The notes beneath the pieces are model-generated. The model was not told the DNA's origin and ran no database searches. It worked only from the letters and a program-made list of their open reading frames with translations. Position numbers and translations under genes: made by a program. A stretch of 64,000 nt of DNA from Candidatus Methylacidiphilales bacterium (lineage in GTDB: Bacteria; Verrucomicrobiota; Verrucomicrobiia; Methylacidiphilales; CAZTYG01): positions 186,001 through 250,000 of the forward strand of contig JANRJG010000038.1 of assembly GCA_033875315.1 (NCBI GenBank), written 5' to 3'. The stretch's first letter is position 1, and every line of letters starts with the position of its first letter. This document shows positions 9,042 to 52,876 of the stretch, in pieces.

Positions 9042-10460
9042 ATGTCCTCGTATTTCCGACAGACCAAAATCATCGCCACCCTCGGACCGGCCACGGAATC
9101 CAAGGAAATGTTGGCCCAACTGATCCTGGCGGGCGTGGACATGCTGCGCCTGAACATGGCCCACGCCTCCCACCCCTGGGTCGACGACGCCATGTGGTTC
9201 ATCCGCGAGGCCTCGACCGAAGTCGGCCGCCACGTGGCGGTGATGATGGACGTCAAGGGGCCCGAGATCCGCACCGGGAAAGTGGAACAAGCCATCGATC
9301 TCAAGACTGGCGACCGCATGGAATTCCACATCGAGGGCGCCGAACCCACCGGCGACATTCCAGCCGTTTCGGTCAATTACCCCGGCCTCCCCGCCGACCT
9401 TGAAGTCGGCGCGACCATCCTGGTCGACAGCGGCCTCATCCGCATGCGCGTGGAGGAAAAGGACGCCTCCCGCGTCCGCTGCACCGTCCTCACCCCCGGC
9501 TCGCTCGGCTCCAAGCGCCACATCAACCTCCCCGGCGTCCATGTCAACCTCCCCTGCCTCACCTCCAAGGACGAGGACGACCTCCGCGCCGGGGTCAAGG
9601 CCGGGATCGACTTTGTCGCCCTCTCCTTTGTCCGCCAGGCCGAGGACGTGCGCGTCCTGCGCCGCTTCCTCGACCACCTCGGCTCGTCGGCCAAGATCAT
9701 CGCCAAAATCGAGGACCAGGCCGGCGTGCGCAACATGGTCGAGATCATCCGCGAGGCCGATGGCATCATGGTGGCCCGGGGCGATCTGGGCATCGAGATC
9801 GACTACCCACGCCTCCCCCTCGTCCAGACCGAGCTGGTCAAGGCCTGCCAGGCCCAGGGCAAGCCGGTCATCATCGCCACCCACTTGTTGGAAACCATGA
9901 TCACCTCCCCCATGCCGACCCGGGCGGAAATTTCCGACGTCTCGAACGCCATCCGCGAGCAGGCCGATGCGGTCATGCTTTCCGGCGAAACCACCGTGGG
10001 CAAATACCCATTGGAATCGGTCCAAGTGTTGAAGAACATCATCGAGAGCATCGAACCCTCGGTCAGCAGCGAACTCAACCACTCGATGCATCTGGCGGCG
10101 GCCAAATCAAAAATGCTCCGCTCCGCCGCCGTGCTGGCACAAGATCTGGGTGATTCCGCCATCGTGGTCTTCACCCGCAGCGGCCTGCTGGCCTACACCC
10201 TCGGCGCCCTGCGCCCGCGCGGCGTGCCGATCTACGCCTTCACCGACATCGAGCCGATCTTCCGCCAACTCCTGTTGCCCTGGGGTGTCGAACCTTTCCT
10301 GATTGATTTCTCCGACGACCCCGAAAAAACCATCCTTCACGCCCTCGCCACCCTCAAGCAAAAGAACTGGTGCCGCACGGGCGACTGGCTGGTGGTCATC
10401 ACCAACGCCCTGGCCAGCGACCAGATCATCGACACCCTCCAGTTGCGCAAAGTGGATTGA
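9042..10460 (+). CDS. pyk: Pyruvate kinase
   Basis: A 472-residue glycolytic enzyme making pyruvate and ATP from phosphoenolpyruvate and ADP. Visible: the opening TKIIATLGPATESKEML, the substrate and metal-binding signature IMVARGDLGIEI at about residues 242-253, the following ATHLLETMI, and a C-terminal regulatory-type domain. Length is normal for the bacterial type. No good ribosome-binding site is seen; TTATAA ends only about 9 nt before the ATG, so the leader may be very short. A hairpin repeat element begins 38 bp after the stop. Confidence 0.95.
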   Translation: MSSYFRQTKIIATLGPATESKEMLAQLILAGVDMLRLNMAHASHPWVDDAMWFIREASTEVGRHVAVMMDVKGPEIRTGKVEQAIDLKTGDRMEFHIEGAEPTGDIPAVSVNYPGLPADLEVGATILVDSGLIRMRVEEKDASRVRCTVLTPGSLGSKRHINLPGVHVNLPCLTSKDEDDLRAGVKAGIDFVALSFVRQAEDVRVLRRFLDHLGSSAKIIAKIEDQAGVRNMVEIIREADGIMVARGDLGIEIDYPRLPLVQTELVKACQAQGKPVIIATHLLETMITSPMPTRAEISDVSNAIREQADAVMLSGETTVGKYPLESVQVLKNIIESIEPSVSSELNHSMHLAAAKSKMLRSAAVLAQDLGDSAIVVFTRSGLLAYTLGALRPRGVPIYAFTDIEPIFRQLLLPWGVEPFLIDFSDDPEKTILHALATLKQKNWCRTGDWLVVITNALASDQIIDTLQLRKVD

Positions 10461-47892: not shown

Positions 47893-49002
47893 TCACTCCC
47901 GCAACCAGAATTTCCCCAAAGACTGCGGCCGTCCATTCAAAAGAACCTCAACGCGGTGAATCCCGGGATAGGGTCTCCGGGTGGTCTGCACGGCCACACT
48001 GATTTTTTTGCCCAATTCCACGCTATCCCCCGGCCCCAATTCCAGTTGCTTCAATTTGAATACCTTGGGCGAGGTTTTCCCGTTGGCCTTGACGAAGTGG
48101 ATGCGCAGGTCGGCCATGATTCGCTGGGCCTTTTTCCCGGGATTGCGCAGCGAAAATCCCACCCGGACCGCACCGCCAATGGACGGACGGCCCGGCGAGA
48201 TGACCACATCGCCGATCCCCACCTTCACCGGCCGGTCGCAACCCAGCACCCGCAGAGCCCCGGGCTCTCCGCGCTTCACCGCCGAACGCAGTGCATGGCC
48301 CACGATCCAACGCCGTTCCGGCGAGGCTCCCTTCAGCCAGCGGGCCGCCGTGCGGGCCAGCAAATCGGGATGATCTTTTCCGATGTCGTTCAAGTTGTTG
48401 GCCACCGAACGGCGGACGTAGAGCTCGGGATCGTCCCGGAGTTTTTCCAGGAGGGCCAGCACCGGTGAGGGATCGCGCTGGAAATGCTTCAGGCGCATTC
48501 CCCAGGGCAAGCGCGGACGGGTGCCCTCGGAAACCAGGCGACGGACATGCACATCCGGGTCCTCGCACCATTCATGCAGCCGGGCCAGGGTTTCTTTGGG
48601 ATAACGCACCAGAAACGGCCGGATACTGAACTCGGCCGTGAACCGCTTGGTCAATTCGTATTGCGCCTTGAGTGAAACCGCCAGGTGCTCGAGGCCGAAC
48701 TCCGAAACAAACTGGGTGTGTGGCAGATAGAAGAAGGAGGCCAGGGCATTGCCCGTCGAATCCGGGCGCGAACCGAGCGATTCCTGAAGAATGCCGACGG
48801 CCTTGGGATACTCGGCAGGCAAGTGCTTCTTGAGTGCGTGGGCGATGTGGCGGCCACGGGCCATCAGGTTGAGCGCATGGTAGCCCTTCCGGACATCGCG
48901 CAGGAAAGGTTGGATAGGAAAAGCTCGATGGACCCGAAGAATCTGCCGGGCAATCCCCGCGGCAACTTCCGGCCCGAAGGCGTTTTTCAGGGGTTCTGCC
49001 AT
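47893..49002 (-). CDS. AlkC-like DNA alkylation repair protein with C-terminal Ig-like domain
   Basis: A 369-residue HEAT-like-repeat protein. Repeats are visible through residues 90-250, for example VHVRRLVSEGTRPRLPWG and LYVRRSVANNLNDIGKDHPD, phrases typical of the AlkC/AlkD glycosylase superfamily, which excises N-alkylated bases without base flipping. The last 110 residues form beta strands (VRVGFSLRNPGKKAQRIMADL, followed by IHRVEVLLNG), matching the Ig-like domain of AlkC. Exact lesion range is unknown. It is the last native-looking gene before the lower-GC methylase/PIN insert. Confidence 0.8.
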   Translation of the reverse strand: MAEPLKNAFGPEVAAGIARQILRVHRAFPIQPFLRDVRKGYHALNLMARGRHIAHALKKHLPAEYPKAVGILQESLGSRPDSTGNALASFFYLPHTQFVSEFGLEHLAVSLKAQYELTKRFTAEFSIRPFLVRYPKETLARLHEWCEDPDVHVRRLVSEGTRPRLPWGMRLKHFQRDPSPVLALLEKLRDDPELYVRRSVANNLNDIGKDHPDLLARTAARWLKGASPERRWIVGHALRSAVKRGEPGALRVLGCDRPVKVGIGDVVISPGRPSIGGAVRVGFSLRNPGKKAQRIMADLRIHFVKANGKTSPKVFKLKQLELGPGDSVELGKKISVAVQTTRRPYPGIHRVEVLLNGRPQSLGKFWLRE

Positions 49003-49072: not shown

Positions 49073-49615
49073 TTAGGCTGATGACCAGTTTTCAATTCTC
49101 AGTCGAACCGGAAACTTACCGTCATGGAAAACATTTTCAGCCGCTTCTTTTACACGGTTCATTCCTAATTTGGCATCGCTGGTAACGAGAATCAAATTCA
49201 TCGCCATCGCAATGCTGGCGATGATGAGGTCGGGTTCATCAATGCCGAGTTCTTTTCCGGTGATTTTTTCGGCCAGATCTTCGGGATGTTTTTCAATAAA
49301 TTTCGAGCGCTTCCCATCCGGCGTTCCGTGCATCTTGAAAAGCTCCGCACGGACAATTGCGTAAGGCTCTACACAATCCTTGTCGAACGGCACTTGGTCA
49401 AAGCGAGCAATGAAAGTGTTAATCGTTGCGCGTTTGTCAGGACGGAGATTGGGCGCTTTGGCGAAGCCGAAGCGGATTTCGCCAACAGCCATACTGGGTA
49501 GAAGCACCTGGTCCTGGACGGACGCGAAACGGGCGTTGAGCGAGGCATGCCCCGTGCGTGTCTCGTCCGTGAGATCGGAGATAACGTTGGTATCAAGGAG
49601 GTAGACGTCGCTCAT
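49073..49615 (-). CDS. PIN-domain ribonuclease, VapC-like, coupled to a DNA methylase
   Basis: A 180-residue nuclease of the PIN superfamily. Likely metal ligands are Asp8 (YLLDTNVISD), Glu46 (AVGEIRFG), Asp129 (DEPDLIIASIA) and Asp147 (LVTSDAKL). It is longer than the usual VapC (about 130-150) because of an inserted stretch at about 90-125. No VapB-like antitoxin ORF lies next to it. Instead the DNA methylase gene ends 3 bp before its ATG (TAACCGATG), so the two are almost certainly translated together. Confidence 0.85.
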   Translation of the reverse strand: MSDVYLLDTNVISDLTDETRTGHASLNARFASVQDQVLLPSMAVGEIRFGFAKAPNLRPDKRATINTFIARFDQVPFDKDCVEPYAIVRAELFKMHGTPDGKRSKFIEKHPEDLAEKITGKELGIDEPDLIIASIAMAMNLILVTSDAKLGMNRVKEAAENVFHDGKFPVRLRIENWSSA

Positions 49616-49618
49616 CGG

Positions 49619-52165
49619 TTAGAACTCCTCCAATGCCTCGGTCACAGCCGGGTCGTTGAACTTCGGGATGAACGGACGAATCAAGTCCGTGCGGCTGGAT
49701 TGGAATGCAGATGAGACGTAGCGCCAGAGAGGGATGTTCGCGGTGAAGTCTGCCGGAAAATAATCACCGAAGTCGAAAGGCACGGGTCGCCGTTCACTAC
49801 GGAAGAAATCCAGCAGCCGACGCTCCAGCCATGGCGGAAGACTGTAGCCTTTGAGGATGAGTGCATCCATCTGGAGCAGTATCTTTTTCGCTCGTTGCTC
49901 CCAGCTTCCGCCGCCCCATAGTTCAAAACGGGCTTCAGGCTTGTCGTTGAGCGCGGCCATATAATCGTCCACAAGTCCTTCGAGGACAATCATGTCGTTT
50001 TGGTCAAGTTGGGGAACAGGGCACTCCAACAAAGTAACTATGCGAACGTCACGTTTGTTCTCGCGCGATGCAATAAATGCAGATGCGACTGGTGAATTGA
50101 GCAAAGCAGCCAATGCGTTTACGCTCCATCCATTCAGCGGCCACAGGCAGTGATATCTTTGTGTGCAAACCAATTCCGACGTGTCAGGTGCTGCTGCAAG
50201 CCGCCAACTTGTCCTAGATTTAGTCGCTGCATTAGCAATGACTTTTGCTTTTTCCCAAGAAAGAGACCAAGCGCCACCTCGTTGGTGCTTCGGATTTGGG
50301 TTCAGCCAGCAAGCTTTTGGAGGAGAAAACGCTTCAAGCCCCTGTTCTACATTGAGCAAACCACGCAGCCAACCCGGACGTTCTTTTTCCGAAATGTATT
50401 TTGTCTGGTCAAACGGGGGCTGCCACTCCACGCCACGATGAATCTCCGCGATTGAGCCTAACTTTGGCAAATGTGCCAGCCGCTCCCAAATCTCCTGCAT
50501 TACTGGAACGTGAAGACCTTTGATTTCTGCTGCCGCCGCATCGAATGAAGTCGTGTCTATTCGACTAACTTCACCAGTTTCTAGAAAATGATTGCGCTGG
50601 CGTTGCAATACTTCGCTGAAATTGACGCGAGTACGGTCATGCGGTTCGGGCGAATGTGCTAACAGCAAGACTGTCTCGACTTCGGCATGGCGAAAAACTT
50701 TGTCGGGCAATGCAACTAAATCGATAGCTGAAAACCGCTCTAACAGCTCCCGACGGATTTGCCGGTAACTCTGTCCATCTATAAAAGCACGGGGCAAAAC
50801 AAATCCGAGGCAAGCATCCTTGTGGCAGTAACGCAGCGTGCGCTGCAAAACATCGTGCGGTTTGGATGTGCCGACGAATGAACCGTATCGAGCTTTTTCT
50901 TTCGGCTTAAAGTTTTCGAAAGGTGGATTGCAGAGCACCACGCGAGCTTCAGCGAGCGCATCGACAAACTTGCGAGACGTGAACACGTCCGCTGGATGCA
51001 CATTCCATCCGTTTGGATTAGGGAAGTCTGCCAGCGTGAGACTCAACTTGCAAACTTCGCGTGCAAACGCGTCTTGCTCGTAGCCATGGAGATTTTTGAT
51101 GAAGTAGCAGTGACGTTCCTGCTCCGTCCAATCTGGTCCAAGCAGATCGCGCAATCGCTTGAGCGCGGCAACCAAAAAAACTCCGTGGCCCGAGCAGGGC
51201 TCAACGATGCGGCGCTCATCTTCCACGATGTCACTGATGGGCAGGTGCTCAACAATATAGCGGGCGATGCTGCGCGGTGTGCTATGGATACCATGTTGCC
51301 TCCGCAGATCGCCATCCACCAGAGTGTCCTCGGCGATAAGCGCGAGCGCGTCCACGGAGAGATTTTGAAAACCAAGCTTCGTCCATAGCGCAGCGGCGAC
51401 GGCTTCCTGTGTGGCTTGGTCAGTGACATGGTTGTTTGGCTCTTTGTAAAAGCTGCACACGGATTGAAGCACGTGCCGGGCATTTTCATTCGCATCCAAC
51501 TGAATGAACCCTGGCACACGCCGGTCATGAAACACTTTTGCCGCGACGAATCGGAAGACGAGCCGATAAAGCGCCTCAATTTCCACAGCCTGCCCGGTGC
51601 TCCTACGGTATGCCTTCTGCCCTGCGGTCAATGCCTCGCGCAACAGACGGTCGAGCTTGCCGCTGATTTCCTTTTCCAGTGCGGGAATCAGACCATGATC
51701 CACCCAGTCAATTTCTGTCGGGCCGACTGGCTTGCCAATGTTCTTCGCTCGCATCACCTCCGCTGGACTCCATTTCTGTGCGACATCGCTGAAGAAACGG
51801 TCCACTGCATCAGGGGGAATTCGTTTAGCTGCCTGTCTTGTGCTGTCTGTACCATGCCCGATGAACCATGGGACAATTCCGCTTTCCTGAACTTCAATCG
51901 CAAATGGCGCTCCAAGAGCACGGTAACGGAGTGGCGGGCTTTCGCCGTTTTGAAAAAACACCGCAATGCATGCCGAGTCATAGTCCACAGGCGTTCGACC
52001 AAACGCCGCCGCCGGAATCGTGGATTGTTCCGCAGTCGAGCAGAACCAGTCGGTGAACTGGTAATCGCGCTTTAGCAGCGACCCGCGATAGCCAAGCCGT
52101 CCGATGCTGCTTAAAACATCATTGAACAATCGCTGATGGCGTTCGCTGGTGATAGAGTCGTGCAT
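49619..52165 (-). CDS. N6-adenine DNA methyltransferase (gamma-class, stand-alone)
   Basis: An 848-residue protein with the order of gamma-class adenine methylases: HSTP at residues 294-297, SAM motif I EPCSGHGVF at 322-330 and catalytic NPPF at 413-416. The C-terminal 350 residues look like a target-recognition domain (start near IAEIHRGVEWQPPFD). The N-terminal 200 residues (YDSACIAVFFQNGE, LGAPFAIEVQES) resemble those of Eco57I-like fused enzymes, but no clear PD-(D/E)XK motif was found. Lower GC than the surroundings suggests transfer. No restriction or specificity gene adjoins it, only the PIN nuclease. Confidence 0.85.
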   Translation of the reverse strand: MHDSITSERHQRLFNDVLSSIGRLGYRGSLLKRDYQFTDWFCSTAEQSTIPAAAFGRTPVDYDSACIAVFFQNGESPPLRYRALGAPFAIEVQESGIVPWFIGHGTDSTRQAAKRIPPDAVDRFFSDVAQKWSPAEVMRAKNIGKPVGPTEIDWVDHGLIPALEKEISGKLDRLLREALTAGQKAYRRSTGQAVEIEALYRLVFRFVAAKVFHDRRVPGFIQLDANENARHVLQSVCSFYKEPNNHVTDQATQEAVAAALWTKLGFQNLSVDALALIAEDTLVDGDLRRQHGIHSTPRSIARYIVEHLPISDIVEDERRIVEPCSGHGVFLVAALKRLRDLLGPDWTEQERHCYFIKNLHGYEQDAFAREVCKLSLTLADFPNPNGWNVHPADVFTSRKFVDALAEARVVLCNPPFENFKPKEKARYGSFVGTSKPHDVLQRTLRYCHKDACLGFVLPRAFIDGQSYRQIRRELLERFSAIDLVALPDKVFRHAEVETVLLLAHSPEPHDRTRVNFSEVLQRQRNHFLETGEVSRIDTTSFDAAAAEIKGLHVPVMQEIWERLAHLPKLGSIAEIHRGVEWQPPFDQTKYISEKERPGWLRGLLNVEQGLEAFSPPKACWLNPNPKHQRGGAWSLSWEKAKVIANAATKSRTSWRLAAAPDTSELVCTQRYHCLWPLNGWSVNALAALLNSPVASAFIASRENKRDVRIVTLLECPVPQLDQNDMIVLEGLVDDYMAALNDKPEARFELWGGGSWEQRAKKILLQMDALILKGYSLPPWLERRLLDFFRSERRPVPFDFGDYFPADFTANIPLWRYVSSAFQSSRTDLIRPFIPKFNDPAVTEALEEF

Positions 52166-52876
52166 TTTGACACCAAAGTTAATACAGAAATAGATTCATT
52201 GCGGCAATGCCGCATGGAATATATTTCGGTATGTTCAGTTGAATCATCCAAACACTTAGTTTTCAGCCTGCGTCTAACTTCATCGCGGCGGGGTGCAAAT
52301 CATACCGAGGATTCGCTCGAAAAGGTTTCCTGATATCGGACCAAAATGCACATTGCCGCAATATGGTTCCCCGAACCATTCGAGGCGGTGTCAATGGCTC
52401 ACAGGGTCTACACCTGAAATTTTGACAGATTTCGATACTTTCAAATCCATTCCATTCCTCCACCCGCCAGCCCCTTTTGCTTCGCAAGTCCCATGCTGAT
52501 TTTCGTTCTAGCATACCCGGCAATCCCGCACAGCTTTTTGGGGAGATCGTCTTTCCACAAGAGAAGGGGTGTTTTTGGTTTCTGGTTTCCTGTTTCTGAT
52601 TTCTAGTTGGGAGAGGCGGATGACTTAATGGCCTGGGACGCGGCCCGCTTCCCCTACAGGGTGAAGATAGCAGAAGTCGCCGCGCGGTTCCCTGGCGCTT
52701 CGGCCCTCTGGGAAGCCTAAAGCTGATGGCTGACAGCCGATAGCCCTCCACTCATTTCCCTCTTATGCCTGTGTGCTCTCTGTGATTCGACTGCATTTCT
52801 AAGACTTACACAGAGGGGGTCTTGCTGATTTTGCTTGGGGTTTGCGGAAGCTCGTTTTGAATGGCGACTTACTCCT
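52166..52876. other. 711-bp gene-free region with scattered repeat fragments
   Basis: No ORF in it looks coding. The 5' part (52166-52330) is A+T-rich and is the likely promoter region of the methylase. Beyond are an approximately 10-bp periodic TTTCTGGTTTCTGG-type stretch (about 52576-52612), a GCTGATGGCTGACAGCCGAT stretch near 52722-52741, and a CACAGAG-family remnant at 52768-52788. The right end adjoins the prepilin peptidase gene. Confidence 0.6.

Follow-up and report, generated by a model that had tools for sequence, protein, structure and literature searches.

Restriction-modification (R-M) systems and toxin-antitoxin systems are as a rule kept apart, and any likeness between them is taken as no more than a resemblance. 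A pair of genes in a 64,000-nucleotide stretch of a Candidatus Methylacidiphilales genome (contig JANRJG010000038.1, positions 186,001 to 250,000; hereafter the window) seems to hold half of each: an N6-adenine DNA methylase directly followed by a PIN nuclease. A first-pass annotation, made from the letters alone, had pointed out that both lack their usual partners, the methylase a restriction enzyme and the nuclease a small antitoxin. What, then, restrains the nuclease, and why does it stand behind a methylase? We consider it probable that the two genes form one module, in which the C-terminal tail of the methylase binds and silences the downstream toxin until the methylase is blocked or is on foreign DNA. 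On this view, the part of the antitoxin appears to be played by the very enzyme that modifies the DNA.

Results

Both genes lie on the minus strand. The methylase, our candidate antitoxin and sensor (49619–52165, 848 aa; Pfam N6_Mtase, E = 1e-14), ends in a TAA stop codon, which is followed by CCG and then by the ATG of the gene for the PIN nuclease, a VapC-related candidate toxin (49073–49615, 180 aa; Pfam PIN, E = 1.5e-9). Gene coordinates and Pfam matches therefore confirm the earlier description of an 848-residue methylase with HSTP, EPCSGHGVF and NPPF motifs 3 bp before a PIN gene.

We scanned 84,980 species genomes using the methylase alone, blind to the gene downstream. The scan yielded 80 methylase loci, 30–69% identical and spread over at least 10 phyla. 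Together with the window and three plasmid copies these make a set of 84 loci, 82 of which are readable downstream. In 76 of the 82 the downstream gene encodes a PIN protein (72 intact, 2 cut by contig ends and 2 broken); the remainder carry a RES protein (4 loci), a HEPN-like protein (1) or an HNH-like protein (1). None of the readable loci lacks a candidate effector, which is always on the same strand as the methylase and separated from it by −20 to +20 bp. The loci were found by methylase sequence only, and the same gene order in 76 of the 82 is more than chance neighbourhood would give. The methylase and toxin gene are a conserved unit: the proposal that the pair would be found in the same order in other genomes has held up, and homologues mostly without the PIN gene, which would have spoken against it, were not what the scan returned.

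The association is also seen from the side of the toxin. Within one alphaproteobacterial family, of which 351 genomes were searched, the PIN and methylase profiles match the same five genomes, in adjacent genes, and no others. Run on 45 host genomes, the PIN profile gives two clearly separated groups of matches: linked copies at E ≤ 1e-21 and other VapC-like proteins at E ≥ 7e-13. Pairwise distances between methylases and between PIN proteins are closely correlated (r = 0.935, 58 non-redundant loci).

We then asked where an antitoxin might reside. The methylases can be aligned to about residue 790, and what follows is a variable tail (residues 793–848 in the window, 49622–49789, minus strand), which we propose as the PIN-neutralising segment. 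Tails at PIN loci are 44–64 residues long, and a single profile hidden Markov model recovers all 69 of those at loci with a complete methylase; the same model finds no convincing match to the tails at RES, HEPN-like or HNH-like loci (E ≥ 0.03 for RES). The tails at the four RES loci are about 150–170 residues long and resemble the toxin-binding stretches (middle and C-terminal) of Xre/MbcA/ParS antitoxins, a likeness that Pfam also picks up in L004 and L077, below its curated cut-offs. In a profile search of the PDB with a RES-type tail, the second hit was ParS (E = 0.02) and the fourth MbcA (E = 0.2), each of which is the antitoxin to a characterised RES toxin.

To place these switches in the history of the methylase, we used a tree built from methylase bodies without their tails. 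On it the RES loci sit within PIN-type branches in two positions, separate from each other and both well supported. As read from these sequences, RES was acquired twice and the tail was replaced both times. From the placement of the RES loci and the types of their tails, it follows that the tail travels with the toxin, not with the methylase body.

A HEPN-like protein of 127 aa (L033:5041-5424) and an HNH-like protein of 104 aa (L038:3285-3599), each with a weak family match, occupy the toxin slot in one locus apiece, and each stands behind a methylase with its own distinct tail.

A complementary pattern is seen in pairs of otherwise similar copies such as L047 and L058, in which the recognition region of the methylase has diverged (52%) and the tail (79%) and the PIN protein (85%) have not. 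A new toxin thus comes with a new tail, and in such pairs the tail and PIN stay alike while the recognition region diverges. These are indirect reasons, each of them, but they make it probable that the antitoxin that seemed to be missing is the C-terminal end of the methylase itself. A six-frame comparison with close relatives revealed no conserved open reading frame (ORF) in the 700 bp upstream of the window methylase that could be a hidden antitoxin. The first-pass annotation was right that no small VapB-type ORF accompanies the nuclease; that the nuclease lacks an antitoxin partner altogether is the part we would revise.

The putative toxin itself belongs to a familiar branch. Its acidic quartet (D8, E46, D129 and D147) is present in 72 of 72 PIN sequences, and in both the PDB and NCBIfam it is closest to VapC/FitB toxins, including a match to the NCBIfam VapC tRNA(fMet) endonuclease at E = 3e-13, which is under the NCBIfam cut-off. 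Going by these relatives its target would be RNA, and the VapC match makes the tRNA-fMet anticodon a first guess. The protein is about 50 aa longer than a usual VapC, mostly by an insertion before the third catalytic acid. This insertion is family-specific (W.E.W.D..TG..L.IDENDLW, alignment columns ~105–145) and longer than the corresponding part of ordinary VapC; it might serve as a methylase-binding surface.

In two loci the PIN gene is damaged and the methylase intact: in L048 the PIN protein is broken after residue 35 (after position 9469), and in L075 it is frameshifted near residue 79 (after position 9466), though either could be a sequencing or assembly error. The methylase core of L048 is identical to that of L047. 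We count the occurrence of a broken toxin beside an intact methylase in favour of the methylase acting as a guard.

The catalytic domain of the methylase (residues 283–510, 50636–51319, minus strand), defined by the Pfam match and by motif conservation, includes the three motifs named above; all 79 methylase sequences examined have the NPP motif, and the S-adenosylmethionine-binding motif (EPxxGxG) is conserved. We predicted the structure of a read-through chain, consisting of the methylase, two linker residues and PIN, from 33 paired sequences (one row from the plasmid collection was excluded). The AlphaFold2 (AF2) model has a mean predicted local distance difference test score (pLDDT) of 83.7, and Foldseek ranked the type IIG enzyme BpuSI first among its structural neighbours, followed by CamA, DrdV, a BREX methylase and M.BseCI.

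The N-terminal domain (residues 1–158, 51692–52165, minus strand) was also predicted alone (AF2 pLDDT 87.8). Foldseek ranks 1, 2, 6 and 8 were proteins with a restriction-endonuclease fold, with probabilities of 0.80–0.98 and none at E ≤ 0.001: two PDB chains of one entry (0.98), BpuSI (0.93) and TT1808 (0.80). Sequence-profile searches of the PDB and Pfam returned nothing useful for this domain, leaving the fold comparison as the informative one. In the 79 sequences, the E-x-K half of the PD-(D/E)XK site is absent from the corresponding beta strand (residues 65–71). A true restriction domain in the N-terminus had been raised as a possible objection to the pairing; the predicted fold looks like one, but no active restriction domain was found. 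Judging from the model, the methylase is apparently related to type IIG enzymes, its own nuclease having gone dead and its effector being encoded by a gene of its own that can be swapped.

Between the catalytic domain and the tail lies a probable target-recognition region (residues 511–790, 49796–50635, minus strand). It diverges faster than neighbouring segments between close copies, and a TaqI_C-like specificity match was found in relatives. This pattern of divergence suggests that target specificity is exchanged through this region.

At the window locus, there is a GGAGGAG ribosome-binding sequence for the PIN gene (49625–49631, minus strand). It sits within the last codons of the methylase, 9 nt ahead of the PIN ATG, an arrangement that translational coupling would lead one to expect. 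The module has a guanine-plus-cytosine (GC) content of 51–55%, against mostly 60–67% on either side, and a 670-bp gene-poor stretch (52166–52834) lies upstream of the methylase; both features had been remarked on in the first-pass annotation as signs of a transferred module, and the locus does look transferred. No restriction enzyme adjoins the pair in the window, again as first described. The methylase is present in a single copy in the source genome and is absent, at E ≤ 1e-20, from 387 other genomes drawn from the same phylum.

A gene for a HEAT-repeat, AlkD-like protein (47893–49002) follows on the same strand, 70 bp downstream of PIN. We used it as a flank in seeking an empty insertion site; the relatives searched held only divergent copies without the other flank, and for this reason the AlkD-like protein is probably not part of the module.

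In about 55 loci a gene for a MerR-like helix-turn-helix (HTH) protein of ~160 aa overlaps the methylase start (ATGA-type) or abuts it (for example L042:6510-6992, L003:5465-5962, L004:5522-6010 and L018:6531-7013). Its carriers are mostly Proteobacteria and Thermodesulfobacteriota and include all four RES loci. The copy in L018 resembles mad1 of the MADS system. There is no such gene upstream of the window methylase, so the basic pair can do without it.

Individual copies of the module adjoin type IIG enzymes, Shedu, the PDC-S28 helicase, PDC-S02 and MADS-like genes, surroundings that at these individual loci are consistent with defence islands. In an Agrobacterium plasmid copy (L003:2496-14283), the module lies between the candidate defence helicase PDC-S28 and Shedu, near the Tn7-like genes TniB and TniQ. 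The distribution of the module is sporadic, and three copies are plasmid-borne. The methylase had no relatives among the phage records and viral contigs that were searched, so the module is not evidently phage-borne.

Discussion

How might such a module work? A sequence-specific methylase, probably of type IIG-like descent with a dead nuclease site, would mark the host's sites. As long as it is intact and free, its short C-terminal tail would hold the toxin, here a VapC-like PIN ribonuclease. The toxin would be released if the methylase were lost or degraded, if something such as an anti-restriction protein of a phage inhibited it, or if it became occupied with foreign DNA that lacks the modification. 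Freed PIN would then stop translation, and freed RES, which is an NAD+ (nicotinamide adenine dinucleotide) phosphorylase (PMC11535050), would drain NAD. The principle would be the one by which PrrC is let go from EcoprrI: the type I R-M enzyme linked to PrrC keeps it silent, and a phage factor that counters restriction activates it (PMC2610378, PMC12707154). The first-pass annotation had modelled a methylase that restrains a ribonuclease until DNA is unmodified or the enzyme is blocked; restraint still fits best, in a version in which the tail does the holding.

Several observations weigh against this reading. The Pfam Xre/MbcA/ParS matches in the RES-type tails (E = 1.5e-4 in L004 and 8e-5 in L077) are below the curated cut-offs. 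Compared with other segments of the methylase for co-variation with PIN, the tail proved not to be exceptional: beyond the methylase core the co-variation is weak (partial r = 0.19) and no larger than for other segments. In the AF2 model most of residues 831–850 are at or below a pLDDT of 50, so that the tail would bind PIN is something we infer from the exchange of tails with toxins. The MerR-like gene could contribute to control in most of the proteobacterial and desulfobacterial loci. Finally, plain addiction would likewise account for the mobility on plasmids.

Both a blocked methylase and unmethylated foreign DNA are plausible triggers. We favour the view that methylation matters to the mechanism, because the catalytic motifs are invariant and the recognition region is diversifying. 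Our fullest version of the tail-held toxin, offered tentatively, is that the antitoxin is a methylation-reading former type IIG methylase that responds to unmethylated foreign DNA, or to being inhibited itself, by freeing an exchangeable effector (PIN ribonuclease, RES NADase, HEPN-like or HNH-like). Self would then be told from non-self by methylation, and the outcome would be abortive infection, not DNA cutting.

A special case of the tail-held toxin is that it is gated by methylation as such: the methylase would sense unmethylated sites and release or activate PIN on foreign DNA, giving an abortive response. A mere protein antitoxin would need neither catalytic residues that are invariant in 79 of 79 sequences nor a diversifying recognition region, and the fold suggests descent from a type IIG-like sensor-nuclease. 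Methylation might, however, be kept for other reasons, and we regard strict gating as possible yet doubtful.

Two further explanations are weaker rivals than a methylase that guards its toxin. In the first, the pair is a plain type II toxin-antitoxin system for addiction to a plasmid or island, with the methylase replacing the DNA-binding half of the antitoxin and serving only autoregulation and stability. A tailed methylase standing in for the usual antitoxin architecture would agree with this, as would the three plasmid-borne copies, the sporadic distribution and the MerR-like regulator in many loci. Such a system would not require invariant methyltransferase motifs, and several copies stand beside type IIG enzymes, Shedu, PDC-S28 and PDC-S02; plain addiction is in our view unlikely.

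More unlikely still is an R-M system with an unusual nuclease, in which PIN would be a DNase that cuts DNA without the methylase mark and the methylase would only shield the host. PIN-like folds do include DNases. The gene order resembles that of R-M systems, the methylase has a variable recognition region, and one relative carries an HNH-like nuclease in the same slot. Against this, the nearest characterised relatives of the PIN protein are VapC ribonucleases, and the slot is filled in two independent lineages by RES, which is an NAD+ phosphorylase (PMC11535050) and cannot be a restriction enzyme. Nor would an R-M system explain why the tail is exchanged with the type of toxin. That the methylase and PIN are functionally unrelated neighbours is hardly credible given 76 of 82 loci over at least 10 phyla, no orphan of either gene in 351 genomes and a distance correlation of r = 0.935.

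If the tail-held toxin is real, the module would couple cell shutdown, compactly and with two genes, to the recognition of DNA methylation or to anti-restriction attack. It would also give RES toxins a probable place in immunity, something that according to a 2024 paper had not been shown (PMC11535050), and it would explain a class of apparently "orphan" methylases.

How does the module compare with systems already described? Like PrrC/EcoprrI, it encodes an RNA-cutting suicide enzyme (as we propose for PIN) together with a DNA-modifying enzyme that would silence it, and the two may by analogy share a working principle. PrrC, however, is an ABC-ATPase anticodon nuclease within a type I (Ic) hsd locus, whereas the module pairs one methylase with PIN or RES and has no restriction subunit; at the window locus there is no ABC ATPase or hsdRS, and the nuclease is a PIN protein. 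With VapBC it shares a PIN protein of the VapC/FitB branch, the conserved acidic residues and translational coupling to an upstream gene, but an 848-aa methylase takes the place of the small VapB (~70–90 aa, with a DNA-binding N-terminus), and its PIN is ~50 aa longer. In the RES variants the upstream protein ends in a putative ParS/MbcA-like segment, which recalls the RES-Xre systems ParST, MbcTA and NatRT; a DNA methylase would here take the place of the N-terminal HTH part of the antitoxin.

Among R-M systems, type IIG enzymes such as BpuSI and DrdV likewise combine a restriction-endonuclease-like domain, a helical connector, a methylase and a recognition region in one chain, but the N-terminal domain here is without E-x-K and a separate toxin gene follows. 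As in type II R-M the methyltransferase motifs are intact, but there is no adjacent cognate restriction endonuclease; of the 82 readable loci, 80 carry PIN or RES downstream, and L038 is the one HNH-like exception. The methylase is distantly similar to mad2 of MADS, and one upstream HTH gene resembles mad1, but the score is 29 bits against a curated MAD2 cut-off of 720, and the module has only two or three genes with the toxin directly behind the methylase. PADLOC matched the module with generic methylase models only, and literature searches of open-licence papers found no named methylase–PIN or methylase–RES system, in keeping with the first impression that the pair is unnamed. By the features that define those systems, the module belongs to neither VapBC nor type II R-M, and we class it as a methylase-based toxin-antitoxin or guard module; as such it would be an undescribed DNA-sensing suicide or defence module.
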